IMG/VR virus record: IMGVR_UViG_3300037468_000342
Coordinates: 1 to 45,196 of that record
From: a virus
Reading direction: 5' to 3' (one strand)
DNA length: 45,196 bases
Position numbers and translations under genes: made by a program. Positions 9,087-45,196 of the stretch are shown piece by piece; position 1 is the stretch's first letter, and each line of letters starts with the position of its first letter. Below the pieces are notes generated by a model, which made no database searches, was not told where the DNA came from, and saw only the letters and a program-made list of their open reading frames with translations.

Positions 9087-9130
9087 TTTGACTCTCTTTC
9101 TAAATCTATCTATACTCATTCTTATATCTC

Positions 9131-9164
9131 ATCATATCATATCATATCATATCATATCATATGA
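9131..9164. repeat. Pentanucleotide tandem repeat related to the dispersed palindrome
   Basis: Six tandem ATCAT units (9131..9160) followed by ATGACG. The right end contains TCATATCATATGA, a shortened dispersed palindrome, so the array looks like an expanded half-site. It sits in the 125-bp intergenic region directly upstream of the candidate ribbon-helix-helix regulator gene. An AT-rich TATATC (about 9124-9129) lies immediately upstream and TTTTTAAA (about 9188) downstream; either could be a TATA box. Confidence 0.8.
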
Positions 9165-9211
9165 CGAGATAACGCAGCGCCTACCGATTTTTAAAACAGC
9201 GAGGTGTCAAA

Positions 9212-10550: not shown

Positions 10551-10726
10551 GGCACATACTCCCCTGTATTATCCCGGGACTAACACCATGCCCACACCGT
10601 TTGGTAGCACCGAATATTATGGCAGACAACGTAATGAGGTGCGAAATCTGGTGCATGAAATGGAGACTGCAACGGGATAAGGAGTTCCGTATTCACGGAT
10701 GCCACCCCGACTATCCAAAGGATTAG
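10511..10726 (+). CDS. Small Cys/His-containing hypothetical protein
   Basis: A 71-residue ORF with PCIIPGLTPCPHRL, RCEIWCMKWR and HGCHPD. Five Cys plus His residues could coordinate a metal. The gene ends where the dispersed palindrome at 10726 begins, so it closes this operon segment before a new promoter. It is unrecognised. Confidence 0.55.
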   Translation: MVEVRFTHNPDDVRHILPCIIPGLTPCPHRLVAPNIMADNVMRCEIWCMKWRLQRDKEFRIHGCHPDYPKD

Positions 10727-10745
10727 TCATATCATATGATATGAC
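10726..10745. repeat. Dispersed 20-bp palindrome, copy 4
   Basis: A perfect 20-bp inverted repeat (GTCATATCAT + ATGATATGAC). It lies directly after the 10511 gene and 21 bp upstream of a good archaeal TATA box, which is where an activator or repressor site would be expected. Confidence 0.88.
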
Positions 10746-24051: not shown

Positions 24052-24564
24052 TCACTCGAACAGCCGTGCTTTCGGCTCTGCGGGCATGGGCGTGAACTCG
24101 AAGTCCACGATACCTGTGGTCGCTGCACCGAAGATTATCATGTTCTTGATGTACAGGACAACATCGTTAGCCACGTTTGCGGCTGCGGGGGTTGTGCCAA
24201 GACATCCACGAATGACGGTGAGTGTTGAAGCTGCCGCACCCTTTGCGGTCTCGTTGGTGACCAGCATGATTTCTCCACCAACGCCAGTCTGGACATAGTA
24301 CGGAAGCTGACGGGTGATGACGCCTGCATCGACCACAATCTCTGTGGTGTTTGCAGTATAGGCGGTTCCCACGTTGTTCACGACTGCTGTACCAAAGGTC
24401 AGAGTTGCTTCCTCTGCGCCAGTGTACAGGTGTGCGGTAAGCCCGCCAACACCCGGGTATGGGAGAACAATCCAGTCTGCGGTTGTCGCCTTTGTGAAGC
24501 GTCCAGAGACTCTGATTGCGCCCTGCCGGTTGAAGTATTTTGGAGTGATTTCTGCTGCTGCCAT
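24052..24564 (-). CDS. Probable capsid decoration / head protein
   Basis: A 170-residue Ala/Thr/Val-rich beta protein located directly after the major capsid gene. Segments such as LTFGTAVVNNVGTAY, TTEIVVDAGVITRQLPYYVQTG and GEIMLVTNETAKGA suggest a beta-barrel or sandwich. This position is usually held by decoration or head-stabilising proteins. GGAGGAAAAGAAATG precedes the start, a strong ribosome binding site consistent with abundant expression. Confidence 0.6.
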   Translation of the reverse strand: MAAAEITPKYFNRQGAIRVSGRFTKATTADWIVLPYPGVGGLTAHLYTGAEEATLTFGTAVVNNVGTAYTANTTEIVVDAGVITRQLPYYVQTGVGGEIMLVTNETAKGAAASTLTVIRGCLGTTPAAANVANDVVLYIKNMIIFGAATTGIVDFEFTPMPAEPKARLFE

Positions 24565-24576
24565 TTCTTTTCCTCC

Positions 24577-25893
24577 TTATGCGATTCCGAACACCCCTCC
24601 ATGGAGTGAGCTGGCGGCATCAATGTCGGACTTATCAACCATGGTCTCGGCGGCTGAGATTACTGCCTTCGAGCTGAGGTTGATCTTTGCAAGATCCTCG
24701 TACATATCCTGCCAAAGCGTTCTGCGGGCAATCAGGCGGGTATCAATGAGCATGATAGTTCCTGCACCTGCTGTCTGCGGCATGAACGCATGGGGAACGA
24801 GCGGGAGCCCGTCTGCACCGGGGAAGTTCAAGCTGAGCTTGGAGATTCCGGTTGCGAGTTCCTTGATAGGCTCGGTACGCATTTTCTGCCATTCGCCACG
24901 TCTCATAATGGCAAATACACGATAATCGCAGAGGGCGAGATTCGGCTGCATCCCGAACTTGACCATCGTGTTGTAGGTCTTGTCGAGATCCTCTTGCATC
25001 GTGTCATATGAGTTGCCACTTGAAGTTACCCAGGTCTGGTCGCCTGATGTTCCTGCAGTGTTAGCCTGAATCATCTGGTAGAGACCGTTGTACCCGACAT
25101 CCCCTGCGGCATATGCCGTGTGGAATGCAAACGTGGTGTCATTGACCGAGATATTTACCCCGAGCATAAGACGTTCACGGAGAGCCCGGAGTGCGTCCTG
25201 TGCAGCATCGATGCGGATTGCAAGCATGTCACGGGCGGGAACCTGTGCCAGACCGGCAAGCTGAGCTGCCTTGGTGACCCGGAGAACCGCATACAGGTAC
25301 TTGATGTACTGTGAACGGTTGTACGAGGTCATTTCGGATTCGGTGAAGTCCTGATCCTCAACACCGGGGAACGCCGAGCCCTGGTCGTATGGTCCCACAA
25401 TGTCGAAGTTCGCGGTCTTACCCTTGTTGGACTCCGAGGGGATGAGCGACTGAACTGGATATGGACGCTTGTACAGATAGGTGACATCCTGATCTGCGAT
25501 AACGTGCATGAAGTTCGAGCTGGTCGTCATGGCTTTCTTGAGTTCGCAGACATCGGGGAGTTCGTCCCAAAATGCCTTGCTGACATCATCGAGCCACTGG
25601 TTATAGTTCTTGTCGAGGGCTTTCTGAATCTTGTCAGTCATGTCTCCTTTGATGCCATGTTCAAAGATAGCGCATTTGACAAGTTCTGGATCCATGTTCG
25701 GGAGAAGCGGAACCATGTCCGTTCCTGCATCCAGAAAACGCTTCTGTGCATTGGCTATGTGAGCCTTTGAGATGGGAGTTCCATCTACCATTCCGGGCCA
25801 CATTGCTTCGCCGATAAGTGCAGCGTCGCTTGCGGCAGGGACGTAACGAGAGCCTGTACCGGCTCTGTATAACATTCGTGGATCGTACACCAT
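24577..25893 (-). CDS. Major capsid protein, HK97-type
   Basis: A 438-residue protein placed directly after the protease-scaffold gene. The N-terminal 150 residues are helical (delta-domain-like), then comes PYPVQSLIPSESNKGKTANFDI, the extended-loop/spine region with QDALRALRERLMLG, the A-domain segment TYNTMVKFGMQPNLALCDYRVFAIM, and the C-terminal GTIMLIDTRLIARRTLW. Together these match HK97-fold capsid proteins of archaeal tailed viruses. A delta-domain plus a separate scaffold suggests scaffold-assisted assembly. Fold assignment is from pattern and gene order. Confidence 0.85.
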   Translation of the reverse strand: MVYDPRMLYRAGTGSRYVPAASDAALIGEAMWPGMVDGTPISKAHIANAQKRFLDAGTDMVPLLPNMDPELVKCAIFEHGIKGDMTDKIQKALDKNYNQWLDDVSKAFWDELPDVCELKKAMTTSSNFMHVIADQDVTYLYKRPYPVQSLIPSESNKGKTANFDIVGPYDQGSAFPGVEDQDFTESEMTSYNRSQYIKYLYAVLRVTKAAQLAGLAQVPARDMLAIRIDAAQDALRALRERLMLGVNISVNDTTFAFHTAYAAGDVGYNGLYQMIQANTAGTSGDQTWVTSSGNSYDTMQEDLDKTYNTMVKFGMQPNLALCDYRVFAIMRRGEWQKMRTEPIKELATGISKLSLNFPGADGLPLVPHAFMPQTAGAGTIMLIDTRLIARRTLWQDMYEDLAKINLSSKAVISAAETMVDKSDIDAASSLHGGVFGIA

Positions 25894-40242: not shown

Positions 40243-40386
40243 AAGTAATCCTATGGTGATACCGATTCCAGAGCCAAGTATTATCCCTTCGGTGATCCAA
40301 AAAATCGGGTCGTTTAAAGGGTCACCGAGTCCGTAGTTTGTCGTTCCCGGCTGTGTTCCATGTGGCTTGACAGGTATAGGAATCAT
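40228..40386 (-). CDS. Single-TM microprotein
   Basis: A 52-residue ORF whose ATG overlaps the stop of the methyltransferase gene (ATGA). It has a Pro/Gly-rich N-terminus (MIPIPVKPHGTQPGTTNYGL) and a hydrophobic C-terminal helix (FWITEGIILGSGIGITIGLL) ending HHMM. It is probably membrane-inserted. It forms a pair with the 35-residue protein downstream and could be part of lysis or entry. Function is unproven. Confidence 0.5.
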   Translation of the reverse strand: MIPIPVKPHGTQPGTTNYGLGDPLNDPIFWITEGIILGSGIGITIGLLHHMM

Positions 40387-41648
40387 AATAGTTCACGCTT
40401 CTGCCCGGTCATAGTTTCCCACCGCCGAATAGAAAGTTCACAATATTCTGGCTCAAGCTCGACTCCATAACAGGTTCTTCCGATTTCTTCACAAGCAACG
40501 AGAGTAGTGCCTGTTCCAAGGAAGGGGTCGCAAACACTGTCACCAGCATTGGTGAAGCTGGATACGATGAATAAAGGAAGGTGAACTGGGAACGTGGCAT
40601 TGTGGATTCCTGAGAACTCGTTATTTCTTTGAGGGGGGGCTGAATAGACATTGGGTAAGACACCTCTGAATTTCTTTGTTCCTACTACTCTATTGGCGGG
40701 CTGTTCTTCCTTAAAGATTGCGATTAGCTCGAAGCGGGAGTCCATCACATTCTCTGTCATCGCGGGCGGTGCGTGTCCTTTGTCCCACACAATCAGGTCG
40801 GCGAAATGATGTCGCCAATTATATAGCCACTCGAGGAGGGCAAGCTTGTTTCCAGCGACCATCTGAACATTGACAAAAGAGTAGCAACACAATGGGATCC
40901 ACAATGCGTTGAGGTTATCGAGGAGCTCCAGGTATTTTCTCTGGTCTGCAACATCTTCATCCTCCTTGTATTTGCTGGTCTTGCCAGCCTTTACTTCTTC
41001 GATGCCGATACCGAGGTTGTACGGGGGCGAGGTAAACAGGATAGATGCGACTTCATCCCCCATGAGGGATTTGCAGATGTTTGGAGACGTGCAATCGCCG
41101 CAAATTACCCGGTGTTTACCAAGCTTGAAAGTATTTCCAACCTCGATGTCAGTGTCTATCTTTTCATACTTAAAATCCTCTCCCTTCCATTTGGAGTTCG
41201 GAATTGCACCGGCTTTCATCCGCATGGTTTCCAAGAGGTCTTGCATCTTCTGTGATTGTGACTTTGCAATCAGGAGTATGCTTTTAAGTTTGGCTTTGTC
41301 CGTTTTCGCCATCGCCGATATGGGGTCAAGCGTAGCCAGTACCGCAGCTTCTTCTTCGGGGGTGAGATCCACAAAAGTGACGGGAACAATCGGCTCTTTC
41401 CTACGGAGTGCCAGGTCGAGCCGAAGGTGTCCGTCCACGACAAGCCCAGTGTTTTTATTAACCGTGATCCCGGCAACCCATCCAATATCATCTAATGCAC
41501 CACCCATTGCTTCCTGCTGACTCTTTGGGTGCAACCGCCAGTTCTCCGGGTTCGGCACCAACATCTTTGGATCCATGTCGGCATGTCCAACAATCCTGTT
41601 GCGCCATTCAGTTTTCGGCTCGGTGTTTGTGTGATTTGGCTGCGGCAC
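40383..41648 (-). CDS. ParB-like domain / DNA methyltransferase fusion
   Basis: A 421-residue protein from a GTG. Residues about 25-115 resemble the ParB/sulfiredoxin nuclease-like domain (VPNPENWRLHPKSQQEAMGG, GLVVDGHLRLDLALR) found fused to phage methylases. The methylase part has catalytic TSPPYN (206-211) before the AdoMet motif DPFLGTGTT (374-382), the beta-class order, and a C-terminal VELEPEYCELSIRRWE. TSPPY is compatible with N4-cytosine or N6-adenine activity. No restriction partner is nearby. It probably modifies viral DNA to evade host restriction. Confidence 0.88.
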   Translation of the reverse strand: MPQPNHTNTEPKTEWRNRIVGHADMDPKMLVPNPENWRLHPKSQQEAMGGALDDIGWVAGITVNKNTGLVVDGHLRLDLALRRKEPIVPVTFVDLTPEEEAAVLATLDPISAMAKTDKAKLKSILLIAKSQSQKMQDLLETMRMKAGAIPNSKWKGEDFKYEKIDTDIEVGNTFKLGKHRVICGDCTSPNICKSLMGDEVASILFTSPPYNLGIGIEEVKAGKTSKYKEDEDVADQRKYLELLDNLNALWIPLCCYSFVNVQMVAGNKLALLEWLYNWRHHFADLIVWDKGHAPPAMTENVMDSRFELIAIFKEEQPANRVVGTKKFRGVLPNVYSAPPQRNNEFSGIHNATFPVHLPLFIVSSFTNAGDSVCDPFLGTGTTLVACEEIGRTCYGVELEPEYCELSIRRWETMTGQKRELL

Positions 41649-42035: not shown

Positions 42036-42717
42036 TGTCATCCTCCAAAAATCTTTCAATGTTGCTCTCGATTTTGATTTCTTCCATGGTGATTGTCCTG
42101 TTCACGATTCTCTCCATCACCGGGCTGTTCAACATGCTTTCCGGGTCATCTTCCGTTCCATCATCGTTTGCAGGATTTACCACGTCCTCAATGCTGAACG
42201 TCCCTGGAGGGAGTGCCTGATGTGGCATGACCGTGAGCGTTTCCGTGGGTACGCCCACGCGCCTGATAGTGATGGTGAGTGGTTCCTTGACCGTCGTTCC
42301 CTTCCTTGGGGAATTATAGACTTCCTTATAGAACCGCAGCATGAGGTCAATCATCTCCTTCTTATCCCGCAGGGTTCCGTAGGCATCCACGTCCACCATA
42401 TAATTGTGAAGTGCCTTTTTGATGGATGCGATGATTCCCTCCTCACCAGATAAGAAAAGGTCAATGAACTGTTGCTTCACCGTTGGGGGAAACTCCTTCA
42501 TCAGACACGGATGCACAACCCCCGTCTTGGGGTCTGTGTGGTTCATTGCGATTGCAGAGACCGGGCAGGTGTGGAAGAACACACAAGAGGTACTGCATTT
42601 CTTCCTCATCCCAAGAGTTCGTGCCAATGACTTATAGACAGAGATTGACTTCCCTCCCTTCGAGCATTCCTCCTTGGTCAATGCGTGTTCCTTATCCGGT
42701 AGTGGTATTGTGACCAT
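42022..42717 (-). CDS. Putative terminase small subunit or packaging-associated protein
   Basis: A 231-residue protein from ATG 42717, with GAGGTT upstream; TTG 42723 is an alternative. A Cys-rich segment (KKCSTSCVFFHTCPVSAIAM) near residue 40 may bind metal. The central helices include QQFIDLFLSGEEGIIASIKKALHNYM and DKKEMIDLMLRFYKEVYNSP, and the C-terminus is acidic. Position at the head of the packaging and structural genes suggests the small terminase or a factor for it. The Cys motif is unusual for TerS, so the call is tentative. Confidence 0.5.
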   Translation of the reverse strand: MVTIPLPDKEHALTKEECSKGGKSISVYKSLARTLGMRKKCSTSCVFFHTCPVSAIAMNHTDPKTGVVHPCLMKEFPPTVKQQFIDLFLSGEEGIIASIKKALHNYMVDVDAYGTLRDKKEMIDLMLRFYKEVYNSPRKGTTVKEPLTITIRRVGVPTETLTVMPHQALPPGTFSIEDVVNPANDDGTEDDPESMLNSPVMERIVNRTITMEEIKIESNIERFLEDDNDSE

Positions 42718-42829
42718 CGTCAATAACCTCTATGACTATCGGGGGTCGCATGAACGCTGTTATCTCCATCTTACCACCAGCAACGATTTCGTGGCTCTCT
42801 CCGTCAAAATTTACATAGGTGTGCAACAT
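42692..42829 (-). CDS. Very small hypothetical protein
   Basis: A 45-residue ORF read from the minus strand: MLHTYVNFDGESHEIVAGGK, MEITAFMRPPIVIEVIDDGH, NTTTG. AGAGGT precedes its ATG. It overlaps the start of the putative small terminase by 26 nt and begins just after the first late gene. Unknown; supported by tight packing and ribosome binding site. Confidence 0.5.
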   Translation of the reverse strand: MLHTYVNFDGESHEIVAGGKMEITAFMRPPIVIEVIDDGHNTTTG

Positions 42830-42830
42830 T

Positions 42831-43100
42831 TCAATACCTCTTTGCATCTTCAATGCACTTATCCACTACGGTTTTGAGCTTGTTCCAGTAGGAATCGGAC
42901 GATAATTGCTCGGGCAGATCGCCAAACGAGGCAGTTTGCAAGGGTTTTTCACCACTTTTTGGTGCATTTGCATAGGTTTCGTTGGCGTTTTGTAACATTT
43001 TAACCCTGTTTTGTAACATAATAATCGACTGATTCGGGTCTTGGGAGTACTGTTCAAGCGCCGCCTTCGCTTCCCTTTTCAGGCGGAAAACGTCTTTCAT
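42831..43100 (-). CDS. First gene of the late arm, helical hypothetical protein
   Basis: An 89-residue protein whose ATG (43100) lies at the predicted start site of the leftward promoter, so its mRNA is probably leaderless. The sequence is helical and charged (KDVFRLKREAKAALEQYSQD, YWNKLKTVVDKCIEDAKRY). A short repeat, IIMLQN / VKMLQN, is encoded by two copies of the octamer found in the promoter. It may be a regulator of the late operon, but no DNA-binding motif is clear. Confidence 0.62.
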   Translation of the reverse strand: MKDVFRLKREAKAALEQYSQDPNQSIIMLQNRVKMLQNANETYANAPKSGEKPLQTASFGDLPEQLSSDSYWNKLKTVVDKCIEDAKRY

Positions 43101-43150
43101 GTAACATAATGTTACACTTCAAGGTACTTAAATGTTACACTTTGTAACAT
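42991..43150. repeat. Six TGTAACAT octamers around the late promoter
   Basis: TGTAACAT or its complement occurs at 42991-42998, 43012-43019, 43100-43107, 43109-43116, 43132-43139 and 43143-43150. The last four form two inverted repeats: a 17-bp palindrome with one central base (43100..43116) and a pair with a 3-bp spacer (43132..43150). The two other copies are inside the first late gene. The palindromes flank the TATA-like box, as operators do. Confidence 0.85.
43125..43132 (-). promoter_or_regulatory. TATA-like box of the late (leftward) promoter
   Basis: TTTAAGTA on the minus strand, centred about 28 bp before the ATG at 43100, the spacing of an archaeal TATA box for a leaderless mRNA. 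It lies between two octamer inverted repeats, one overlapping the start site and one just upstream over the BRE position. All leftward genes down to 12383 could be served by this promoter. Confidence 0.55.
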
Positions 43151-43228
43151 TGTGGAAATACAAAAAATCGTATTGGCAACCAGACAGAGCCCCGCTCTTC
43201 TTCGACGTGATGTGAAGCTGCAATGTCA

Positions 43229-43236
43229 TTATATAC
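43229..43236 (+). promoter_or_regulatory. TATA-like box of a rightward promoter
   Basis: TTATATAC, a good archaeal TATA match. A start about 25-27 bp downstream falls at the beginning of the inverted repeat at 43256, so the transcript would open with a stem-loop and carry a leader of about 200 nt before the ATG at 43467. Confidence 0.5.
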
Positions 43237-43255
43237 TCAGCCCGGCTCGATATGT

Positions 43256-43306
43256 TTGTTAGAGGAACATTATGCGGAACTTCATTGTTCCACTGTCGTC
43301 TAACAA
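43256..43306 (+). promoter_or_regulatory. Bipartite inverted repeat in the early leader
   Basis: TTGTTAGA + GGAACA (43256-43269) can pair with TGTTCC (43286-43291) and TCTAACAA (43299-43306), leaving a 7-nt bulge and a 16-nt loop. A second hairpin follows at once: CGCTTA / TAAGCG at 43310..43326 with a 5-nt loop. Both would be in the 5' leader of the rightward transcript and could affect its stability or translation. Confidence 0.6.
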
Positions 43307-43466
43307 CAACGCTTAGCAGGTAAGCGCAACGCCTATGAGTATCCCTCATACCGTGCTTAAAAGGGATATGATGCACTAACTCACCTCATCAGTGATAGGT
43401 CTTATGGTTCATTACCATGACGCTCTATACCTGTGTACCAGTGTGTATGCAGGGGAGAGTAGTAAT

Positions 43467-44018
43467 ATGGACAACACAATGTCGTTGGAAGAGCTGAGAA
43501 CCGCTATGATTAGCGCAGTATCACAGCTTATTGAATCGAAGAAGAACGCTGGAGTTGCAACGGAACTGAGTCCAGAGGTTAAAGCAGCACTTGAAGCAGC
43601 TGGAATGAAAGCTACTCCAATCAGCAAGGTTAATCCTGCTGTTGCTGCAGCGAACCGGGACGCAGCCGACTTCCTCAAGATGGGTATTATTCAATGCCGA
43701 GTCAGTGACCGGCAGGAACGCCCGGACGATGAGAAGGCAACCTTCATCAATGAACTCGCTGACAACAACACCCAAGATGCAGCCTTTGCCATGATGGTAA
43801 AGAAGCTCGAAGGTGTACCGAAGGACAAATACAAGCTCAACAGCTACGACCCCGTGACTGGCAAGTTCAAAGCTGCTGCGTTTGACCCGAACGAAGGGAA
43901 GTTTGTCGGACTCGGCGAGCAGAAAGGCGGATACGCCTATCCGGGGTCACTTGCGGATAAAATCAAAGTGACTATCAAGGGCGGCAGACACGCTGATGAG
44001 ATTGTAGTTGCCTCTTAG
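43467..44018 (+). CDS. Hypothetical protein, first gene of the rightward operon
   Basis: A 183-residue protein from ATG 43467, with AGGGGAGAG ending about 8 nt upstream; a longer ORF from 43392 is not preferred. The N-terminal half is helical and Ala-rich (AMISAVSQLIESKKNAG, EVKAALEAAG, AVAAANRDAADFLKMG); the C-terminal half is beta-rich and basic (AFDPNEGKFVGLGEQKGGYAYPGSLADKIKVTIKGGRHADE). It is unrecognised. It is flanked by a structured leader and two 3' hairpins, so its mRNA may be processed separately and expressed strongly. Confidence 0.75.
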   Translation: MDNTMSLEELRTAMISAVSQLIESKKNAGVATELSPEVKAALEAAGMKATPISKVNPAVAAANRDAADFLKMGIIQCRVSDRQERPDDEKATFINELADNNTQDAAFAMMVKKLEGVPKDKYKLNSYDPVTGKFKAAAFDPNEGKFVGLGEQKGGYAYPGSLADKIKVTIKGGRHADEIVVAS

Positions 44019-44028
44019 GGGGCAACTA
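44005..44028 (+). promoter_or_regulatory. Hairpin over the stop codon of the 43467 gene
   Basis: TAGTTGCC (44005-44012) pairs with GGCAACTA (44021-44028) around an 8-nt loop that contains the stop codon. Its GTTGCC and GGCAAC strands are also complementary to those of the next hairpin, so alternative pairings are possible. Confidence 0.65.
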
Positions 44029-44043
44029 GCACGTCCCTTATTA

Positions 44044-44072
44044 GGCAACAGTAGGTCAAATCTCCTGTTGCC
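44044..44072 (+). promoter_or_regulatory. Hairpin 1 with conserved GTCAAAT loop
   Basis: GGCAACAG (44044-44051) pairs with CTGTTGCC (44065-44072). After a T-C mismatch, AG/CT closes the 7-nt loop GTCAAAT. It lies between the 43467 and 44103 genes, followed by GGGTGATT, the ribosome binding site of the latter. Confidence 0.75.
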
Positions 44073-44102
44073 TTTGCTCCAAATGAGCGATGGGTGATTG
44101 AA

Positions 44103-44357
44103 ATGAATCTCTATGATTCCATTAATGCGAGGTTGCAGGAAGTAAACATGGTGCAACTTCAGGGTGAGAAGTCTGTGACTACCTATTGTTGGGATAAGTC
44201 TACTTTCCGATGGGTTGAGTCGTACATGGGCAATTCAAAGCGGGTATTCCAGCAGTACCAAATCGTTGATTTGCTGATGGGTATCCCCCATGTGATGAGA
44301 AAGAAAGGGTCAATGCTCATAGTGACGCTGATTGATCCGACCGTACGGGCAGAGTGA
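44103..44357 (+). CDS. Hypothetical protein
   Basis: An 84-residue protein from ATG 44103, with GGTGAT 5 nt upstream; the GTG at 44094 is not preferred. It is beta/alpha: VNMVQLQGEKSVTTYCWDKS, TFRWVESYMGNSKRVFQQYQ, IVDLLMGIPHVMRKKGSMLI. It is unrecognised. Both its leader and its stop codon are embedded in hairpins with the same loop, suggesting shared post-transcriptional control. Confidence 0.68.
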   Translation: MNLYDSINARLQEVNMVQLQGEKSVTTYCWDKSTFRWVESYMGNSKRVFQQYQIVDLLMGIPHVMRKKGSMLIVTLIDPTVRAE

Positions 44358-44373
44358 GGTCAAATCTCACTCT
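44351..44373 (+). promoter_or_regulatory. Hairpin 2 with conserved GTCAAAT loop
   Basis: AGAGTGAG (44351-44358) pairs perfectly with CTCACTCT (44366-44373) around the 7-nt loop GTCAAAT. The stem includes the stop codon of the 44103 gene. The closing AG/CT and loop match hairpin 1, although the outer stem sequences differ, which implies selection on structure and loop. Confidence 0.75.
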
Positions 44374-44641
44374 TGTTCATTCCCCTTTATGGGGATAGAC
44401 GAGGGGTGATTGCTGGTTGCTGATGGTCTGACAAACCCCCTGAGCGTAATAGTTCCATGGTATCACGTAGGTCAAACTCACCTCGTCTTTGGGTGACAAC
44501 TGCCCATTAGTTGTGTGTGGTACGAGTTTTGCCGGTTGCGTATCACACTACTTCAACCGGATAGTAGGATGGGGGGCTCAATCAAGCTTATGCGAGGAAT
44601 TATCCGTAGAGCCCCTTTCAAAACTACGAGAGGTGAAAACT
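44374..44641 (+). promoter_or_regulatory. Structured leader of the 44642 gene (candidate cis-RNA)
   Basis: About 270 nt with no convincing gene. Stems: TCCCC/GGGGA (44381-44395); a long-range stem AGACGA plus GGTGA (44397-44409) with TCACC plus TCGTCT (44478-44488); AG-GTCAAA-CT at 44469-44478, a third copy of the loop motif; CCGGTTG/CAACCGG (44532-44560); GGGGCTC/GAGCCCC (44573-44615). A GAGAGGTGA ribosome binding site follows at 44628-44636. The long-range stem would hide GGGTGA at 44404-44409, which could serve a 28-codon TTG-started ORF (44410..44496). It may be an RNA switch, leader peptide or small RNA. Confidence 0.5.
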
Positions 44642-45046
44642 ATGATGGATAAATCTACAAAGAAGCATGTTGCTCAAATGGATGGTCAGCTCCAATGTAA
44701 GATTGGTGAGGACGAAAACATCTTTGTTGGGCGCAGGTCTATTAAGCGGCTCGAGGATGAACTTGAGCTTGCCCGAGCTATGGACGAGTCCGACCGCAAG
44801 GAGAATATCCTTGAGTCTTTTCGTGATGCTGTTGGTCAATTTGAGACCGAATTTGGTTTCAAGCCGACCGTTGCACTCCTATGCTATACGGATAAGAACT
44901 GTCTTGCTTATGCCTTTGATAAGGAGTGCATGATGAATAAGGTTCCAACAACGTATGGTAGAGTCGATGGTATCAAGATTAAGAGCGGTTGCGACCAGAC
45001 TCTCGGTGATGTCCAGCTCAGGACGACCAATGAGGTGACAACGTAA
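44642..45046 (+). CDS. Hypothetical protein
   Basis: A 134-residue protein from ATG 44642 with GAGAGGTGA upstream; the frame is open to 44489 but that part lies in the structured leader. The N-terminal half is a charged helix (RRSIKRLEDELELARAMDES, DRKENILESFRDAVGQFE). The C-terminal half is beta-rich with several Cys (ALLCYTDKNCLAYAFDKECM). It is unrecognised. The stop overlaps the ATG of the join-spanning gene (TAATG). Confidence 0.72.
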   Translation: MMDKSTKKHVAQMDGQLQCKIGEDENIFVGRRSIKRLEDELELARAMDESDRKENILESFRDAVGQFETEFGFKPTVALLCYTDKNCLAYAFDKECMMNKVPTTYGRVDGIKIKSGCDQTLGDVQLRTTNEVTT

Positions 45047-45196
45047 TGGTTTTCCTTGATACAGAGGAGAAGGTTCTCGAGTTCTATGGTTGGACTCGGG
45101 AACAAGCCAATACTGCAAAGGATGTTGGTATTTCTTGCCTTGATAAGCTTGAAGAGTGCGGCGATTATCGGTTCCAAGATGCCTTGAAGGACATTT
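45046..45196 (+). CDS. Hypothetical protein, 5' part of the gene spanning the join
   Basis: This holds the start and first 50 codons of the 100-residue protein completed at 1..279. The ATG overlaps the stop of the 44642 gene (TAATG). From 45070 on the sequence duplicates 1..127. See the entry at 1..279 for the full product. Confidence 0.8.
   Translation, partial: MVFLDTEEKVLEFYGWTREQANTAKDVGISCLDKLEECGDYRFQDALKDI
45070..45196. repeat. Terminal direct repeat, right copy
   Basis: Identical over 127 bases to 1..127. See the left copy for interpretation: an overlap of a circular or circularly permuted genome. Confidence 0.95.

Follow-up and report, generated by a model that had tools for sequence, protein, structure and literature searches.

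Paired hairpins with an identical tip and different stems between the early genes of a probable archaeal tailed virus

In nut sites, a hairpin with a fixed loop on a variable stem stands near a linear box, and the arrangement is repeated in an early operon. Likewise, the T-loop of tRNAs is constant while the T-stems differ, UUCAAAU being a common T-loop. Other small hairpins stand next to a Shine-Dalgarno (SD) sequence and act as phage translational operators, such as those of MS2 coat, T4 RegA and gp32, and archaeal genes can end on terminators, with or without a hairpin, whose U-tracts usually comprise four to seven U (PMC8716108). We have analyzed two hairpins, S1 and S2, and a related third site, S3, located in a window of 45,196 nt (the whole stretch of DNA under analysis, record IMGVR_UViG_3300037468_000342), the hairpin pair being placed between the first genes of a rightward operon (A-B-C-D).

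The comparison of S1 and S2 with these systems reveals partial likeness in each case. The general layout of the lambdoid nut sites (boxA-boxB), a fixed-loop hairpin with a variable stem plus a linear box, is found here in two copies, with the block CGAKGGGTGATTG in the place of the box, but the sequences are not those of boxA and boxB: the host is probably archaeal, the apex AGGUCAAAUCU differs from boxB loops, the location is intergenic and no N-like protein was seen. In respect to phage operators, S1 could likewise count as a small hairpin next to an SD, lying upstream of that of gene B, but neither S2 nor S3 is near a start codon and S1/S2 have no known reader. S2 resembles a tRNA T-arm or minihelix, since its heptaloop GUCAAAU is closed by a G-C pair and the stem varies while the loop is constant, although the first loop base is G instead of U54, D and anticodon arms are lacking and no tRNA was detected. 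Finally, S1 and S2 sit at early gene ends, as the U-tract terminators of the relatives do, but a U-tract is absent after S1, S2 and S3. The hairpins fall outside the U-tract terminators, the families of Rfam 15 and the tRNA/T-arm class as defined by a T-loop of the form U54-U55-C56-R57-A58.

The virus genome and its early operon

The window carries a 127-bp direct terminal repeat (1-127 = 45070-45196), which indicates a complete genome of about 45.07 kb, terminally redundant or circular. Its products include an MCM helicase closely similar to MCM helicases of archaeal tailed viruses, along with TerL and portal proteins, RecT, and a capsid protein whose match to the SU10 capsid family is marginal; from this gene content, the window most likely represents a tailed virus of archaea. 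Leftward and rightward genes diverge at ~43.1-43.4 kb.

Gene A (43467..44018, +) is an ORF of 183 aa with an SD and a TAG stop codon at 44016-44018, and has neither a recognized family (Pfam, PHROG) nor viral or genome relatives. Gene B (44103..44357, +) is an orphan of 84 aa when counted from ATG 44103, GTG 44094 being a possible alternative start, and its TGA stop falls within the 5' arm of S2. Gene C (44642..45046, +; 134 aa; SD GAGGTGA) has a homologue with 36% identity in a related virus (L144 7504-7097, -), and gene D crosses the genome join, from 45046 to about 279. No family match was obtained for genes A, B and C, no RNA-binding protein was found among them, and the AlphaFold single-sequence models of A and B lacked the quality needed for a fold search. 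Judging from gene order and from the absence of T-runs between them, A, B and C are probably carried on a single transcript. Genes A and B also share one reading frame, with two UAG codons between them (44016 and 44052), both inside hairpins.

The hairpins, their common tip and the downstream block

The initial annotation had reported one sequence shared at three places, and AGGTCAAA is indeed present on the + strand at 44053, 44357 and 44469. There are 11 copies in the genome, versus 1.9 expected; the remaining 8 form no such hairpin and look like chance matches. The 12-nt tip AGGTCAAATCTC has exactly two genome copies, both exact and on the + strand (44053..44064 and 44357..44368), each of which tops a strong hairpin. 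S1 (44043..44073, +; AGGCAACAG-TAGGTCAAATCTC-CTGTTGCCT) is made of 9 perfect outer pairs and a 13-nt apex, in which a U/C mismatch is followed by AGGU-CAA-AUCU, and S2 (44351..44373, +; AGAGTGAG-GTCAAAT-CTCACTCT) comprises 8 perfect pairs and a 7-nt loop, and extends outward via a bulge to about 44346-44377. The two stems, of 8-9 bp, have different sequences under the identical 12-nt tip. A further hairpin, HP-A (44005..44028, +; TAGTTGCC/GGCAACTA), covers the stop codon of gene A and has GTTGCC/GGCAAC in common with the arms of S1.

The remaining claims of the initial annotation on the arrangement of these sites stood in part. Of the three sites sharing the sequence, S1 and S2 form strong hairpins, whereas the stem of S3 is weak and other pairings compete with it. 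The perfect 8-bp stem closing a 7-nt loop, described for two of the sites, is exact for S2, whereas in S1 the U/C mismatch separates stem and tip. A location over stop codons holds for S2, which contains that of gene B (44355-44357), but S1 begins 25 nt 3' of the gene A stop. Likewise, a location just before a ribosome binding site applies to S1 but not to the other two sites, as the next convincing start, that of gene C, is found ~266 nt past S2 and ~155 nt past S3.

Besides the tip, S1 and S2 have in common a 13-nt downstream block (CGAKGGGUGAUUG), whose first copy (CGATGGGTGATTG; 44088..44100, +) is offset by 35 nt from the start of the tip and contains the gene B SD, GGTGAT, and whose second copy (CGAGGGGTGATTG; 44400..44412, +) is offset by 43 nt and precedes no convincing ORF start, so that a role as Shine-Dalgarno site does not by itself account for the block. 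The genome holds no third exact copy of the block, and an equally good match between random 50-nt stretches was obtained in 7 of 2984 trials. In both copies a short second hairpin is predicted between tip and block (GCTC-CAAAT-GAGC at 44074..44090, +, after S1, and TCCCC-TTTAT-GGGGA at 44381..44395, +, after S2), which is suggestive only, as 4-5 pairs could occur by chance.

A distinct situation is observed at S3 (44465..44486, +; GTAGGTCAAA-CTC), where the primary sequence (at 44469) is kept with one base deleted and the stem, ACG-u-AGGU/ACCU-CGU, amounts to -5.0 kcal/mol. This site pairs equally well with the block that follows S2, forming a long-range stem between 44397..44412 (+; AGACGAGG) and 44473..44488 (+; CCTCGTCT), the 3' side of which overlaps S3.

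Fold stability, controls and related viruses

Perfect stems of at least 8 bp with loops of at most 17 nt occur 12 times in the whole window, and three of them are S1, S2 and HP-A. Taking as a pair any two identical 10-mers that lie within 1 kb and are enclosed by stems of at least 6 bp differing from each other, we have found S1/S2 to qualify, while none was obtained in 100 dinucleotide shuffles of the genome, nor in other viral loci amounting to 1.29 Mb. One same-loop pair from L106 is unrelated, one copy overlapping a TATA-like stretch and the other lying in a coding frame. Matches to GTAGGTCAAATCTC and to the two-block pattern in viral contigs came without matching stems, and a weak model match at 1047-1071 is at chance level (E 2.2) and inside an apparent coding frame. 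No Rfam 15 family reached its gathering score in the window, or E <=1 in 42700-45196, and neither ARAGORN nor Rfam identified a tRNA.

The region 44000-44110 has a fold z-score of -4.3, none of 200 shuffles being as stable. Folding of the sense strand is preferred over that of the antisense strand in S2 (-15.5 vs -11.5 kcal/mol) and in S1 (-16.1 vs -15.1 kcal/mol), and the tip pairs AGGU with AUCU via a sense-strand G.U, which on the opposite strand is an A.C mismatch. This sense-strand stability, together with the location in gene spacers, favors S1/S2 acting as RNA structure rather than as DNA. The RNA structure put forward in the initial annotation is thus supported by the different paired stems, the G.U pair and the better sense fold; the compensatory pattern, however, comes down to 4/13 pairs differing on both sides in just two sequences of one genome, and 27/500 shuffles do likewise.

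Ordinary archaeal termination does not account for S1/S2, as a T-run of 5 or more is absent from 43100-45069 and the longest within 25 nt after any hairpin is of 3 T, where a terminator of this kind would need about 4 or more U at the 3' end (PMC8716108).

Scans with the products of genes A, B and C and with the terminase retrieved nothing close, no near relative of the leaders was encountered either, and the MCM relatives, at only ~31% identity, lack the motif. The search with the major capsid protein led to three related viruses (58, 49 and 44% identity), the first of which (58%) has portal, terminase, MCM, gene C and the surrounding gene order in common with the window. The S1/S2 motif is absent from all three, including the syntenic one, so that the conservation at homologous loci that the initial annotation had proposed to check was, as far as testable, not found, and the designation of conserved cis-regulatory RNA element is not borne out in these three. 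No relative near enough for a proper covariation test turned up, and the absence confines the claim to the lineage of this virus without refuting it.

What the relatives do carry is U-runs after early genes, two with a perfect hairpin just upstream. At L150 10066-10095 a hairpin over a gene stop is followed by T8, the virus comprising L147-L149 has gene-end hairpins or U-runs at 24957-24981 and 24461-24487, and in L144 a hairpin separates gene A' from gene B'. The relatives thus appear to terminate or process transcripts at positions where, in this virus, S1, S2 and HP-A stand without U-tracts. In the syntenic relative the gene in the equivalent position ends with UAA. tRNAs were found in the same operon of a relative, on the early-gene strand (L144 6993-7067, -; L146 2508-2583 and 2735-2800, -), corresponding to tRNA-Ile(TAT), tRNA-Met(CAT) and a third tRNA-like gene, one tRNA being directly 3' of gene C in the first relative. 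The second relative contains an Rfam RT-17 RNA (RF03020) at L149 1700-1789 (+), with 46.1 bits.

Possible roles of the hairpins and other repeats of the window

The reading that we tentatively prefer, at somewhat less than an even chance, is that S1/S2 represent an intercistronic RNA element, specific to this lineage, to which a sequence-specific RNA-binding factor would bind and thereby affect how the A-B-C transcript is processed, stabilized or translated. The first rightward operon would carry two sense-strand copies of this element, in which the stem is kept as a helix and not as a sequence, the tip AGGUCAAAUCUC is invariant and the block is retained. An RNA-binding factor of the virus or of the host would read the invariant tip, the stem merely presenting it, and binding would set mRNA processing or stability, or translation of the next gene, as for gene B, whose SD lies in block copy 1. 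S3 may be a decayed or differently folded third copy, able to pair with the second block. Indeed, a tip and a block kept as sequence next to a stem kept as helix resemble sites read by factors, such as nut sites and phage operators, and also tRNA T-arms. In favor of this reading are the same tip on different stems, the strong fold, the sense preference, the recurring block and the absence of a U-run; against it, the good copies are only two and from one genome, the four covarying pairs are thin, the motif is absent from three relatives and S3 is without a good stem. Of the cis-regulatory or protein-binding role suggested initially, the RNA structure is the supported part, no Rfam family matches, and the role itself is what we infer from the arrangement. 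The fixed tip could serve as bait for a factor that reads it, and the two copies make a compact test case.

We consider it unlikely that the early genes are separated by a repeated recognition element, with fixed tip, free stem and linear box, for which a dedicated factor exists and which works in a nut-like manner or as a tRNA T-arm mimic. To our knowledge no such viral RNA control has been described in archaea, and a limited literature search returned no account of gene control at the RNA level in tailed viruses of archaea.

The main rival, which we consider unlikely but well worth weighing, is that these are generic gene-end mRNA hairpins, involved in 3'-end protection, insulation or processing without a specific reader, the common tip having arisen by intergenic duplication. 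The different hairpins and U-runs at the early gene ends of the relatives agree with this, as does HP-A over the stop of gene A. However, a plain duplicate would be expected to keep its stems and let the loop drift, whereas here the stems differ and the 12-nt tip and 13-nt block are kept. Were it correct, S1/S2 would be one further case of gene-end hairpin.

Less probable still, and to our judgment quite unlikely, is a T-arm-like minihelix with a helix of ~12 bp and the G-C closed heptaloop, whose recognition by tRNA-handling enzymes, such as RNase P, tRNase Z or T-loop modifiers, would result in processing of the polycistronic mRNA. The constant loop on differing stems is the same pattern as in tRNAs, GUCAAAU departs from UUCAAAU at the first base only, tRNAs occur in the same operon of a relative (L144, L146), and S2 is the sole T-loop-like hairpin with a stem of at least 6 bp across four genomes; the second-best match of the S1/S2 model in that relative is also a tRNA T-arm, but at chance level (E=1). 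Position 1 of the T-loop normally makes a reverse Hoogsteen U-A pair (PMC4810234), and here it is occupied by G; moreover, no tRNA was found, a mismatch interrupts the would-be T-stem of S1 and S3 does not fit. A functional T-arm likeness would connect the processing of viral mRNA with the tRNA machinery of the host.

Antitermination of the nut/boxB type, in which variable stem, fixed loop and linear box would be loaded onto the transcribing RNA polymerase, appears very unlikely. The layout is the same and is repeated early in the operon, and the U-runs that the relatives carry between early genes are absent here, but neither an N-like protein nor an archaeal counterpart is known, and the sites lie between genes and not in a leader, which makes this an analogy only.

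The last three readings are all highly improbable. A recoding element for stop-codon read-through, with the in-frame UAGs at 44016 and 44052 read as pyrrolysine, draws on the shared A/B frame and on UAG ending just 2/46 of the genes counted in the virus, but TAG is rare genome-wide (572 vs 1879 TGA), the A-B spacer has a codon score of 0.02, intermediate between coding and non-coding (coding median 0.21), gene B is provided with a start and an SD of its own, the stop codon within S2 is a UGA and the equivalent gene of the relative ends with UAA. A DNA-level element, namely a cruciform or a replication or recombination site, would agree with inverted repeats near the divergent promoter region, but scarcely with the sense preference derived from G.U, the gene-spacer location and the lack of repeat arms of shared sequence. 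Chance plus duplication, without function, is in line with the lack of conservation in any relative found and has against it the shuffle and cross-genome controls (0/100; 0 in 1.29 Mb).

Other repeats were observed in the window. A cluster of GTAACA/TGTTAC repeats occupies the divergent promoter region (42992-43150), with a similar GTAAC/GTTAC cluster in the equivalent place of the syntenic relative (L144 9309-9410). Palindromes resembling TATCATATGATATGA recur at 1454-1473, 9128-9165, 10726-10745, 23269 and 28682, some of them (at 1.45, 9.1 and 10.7 kb) lying in spacers between genes of the early region, and are a possible operator of a viral regulator. Adjoining the terminase gene, 40383-41648 (-) encodes a DNA methyltransferase with an N-terminal ParB-like region, which is matched in two relatives too.
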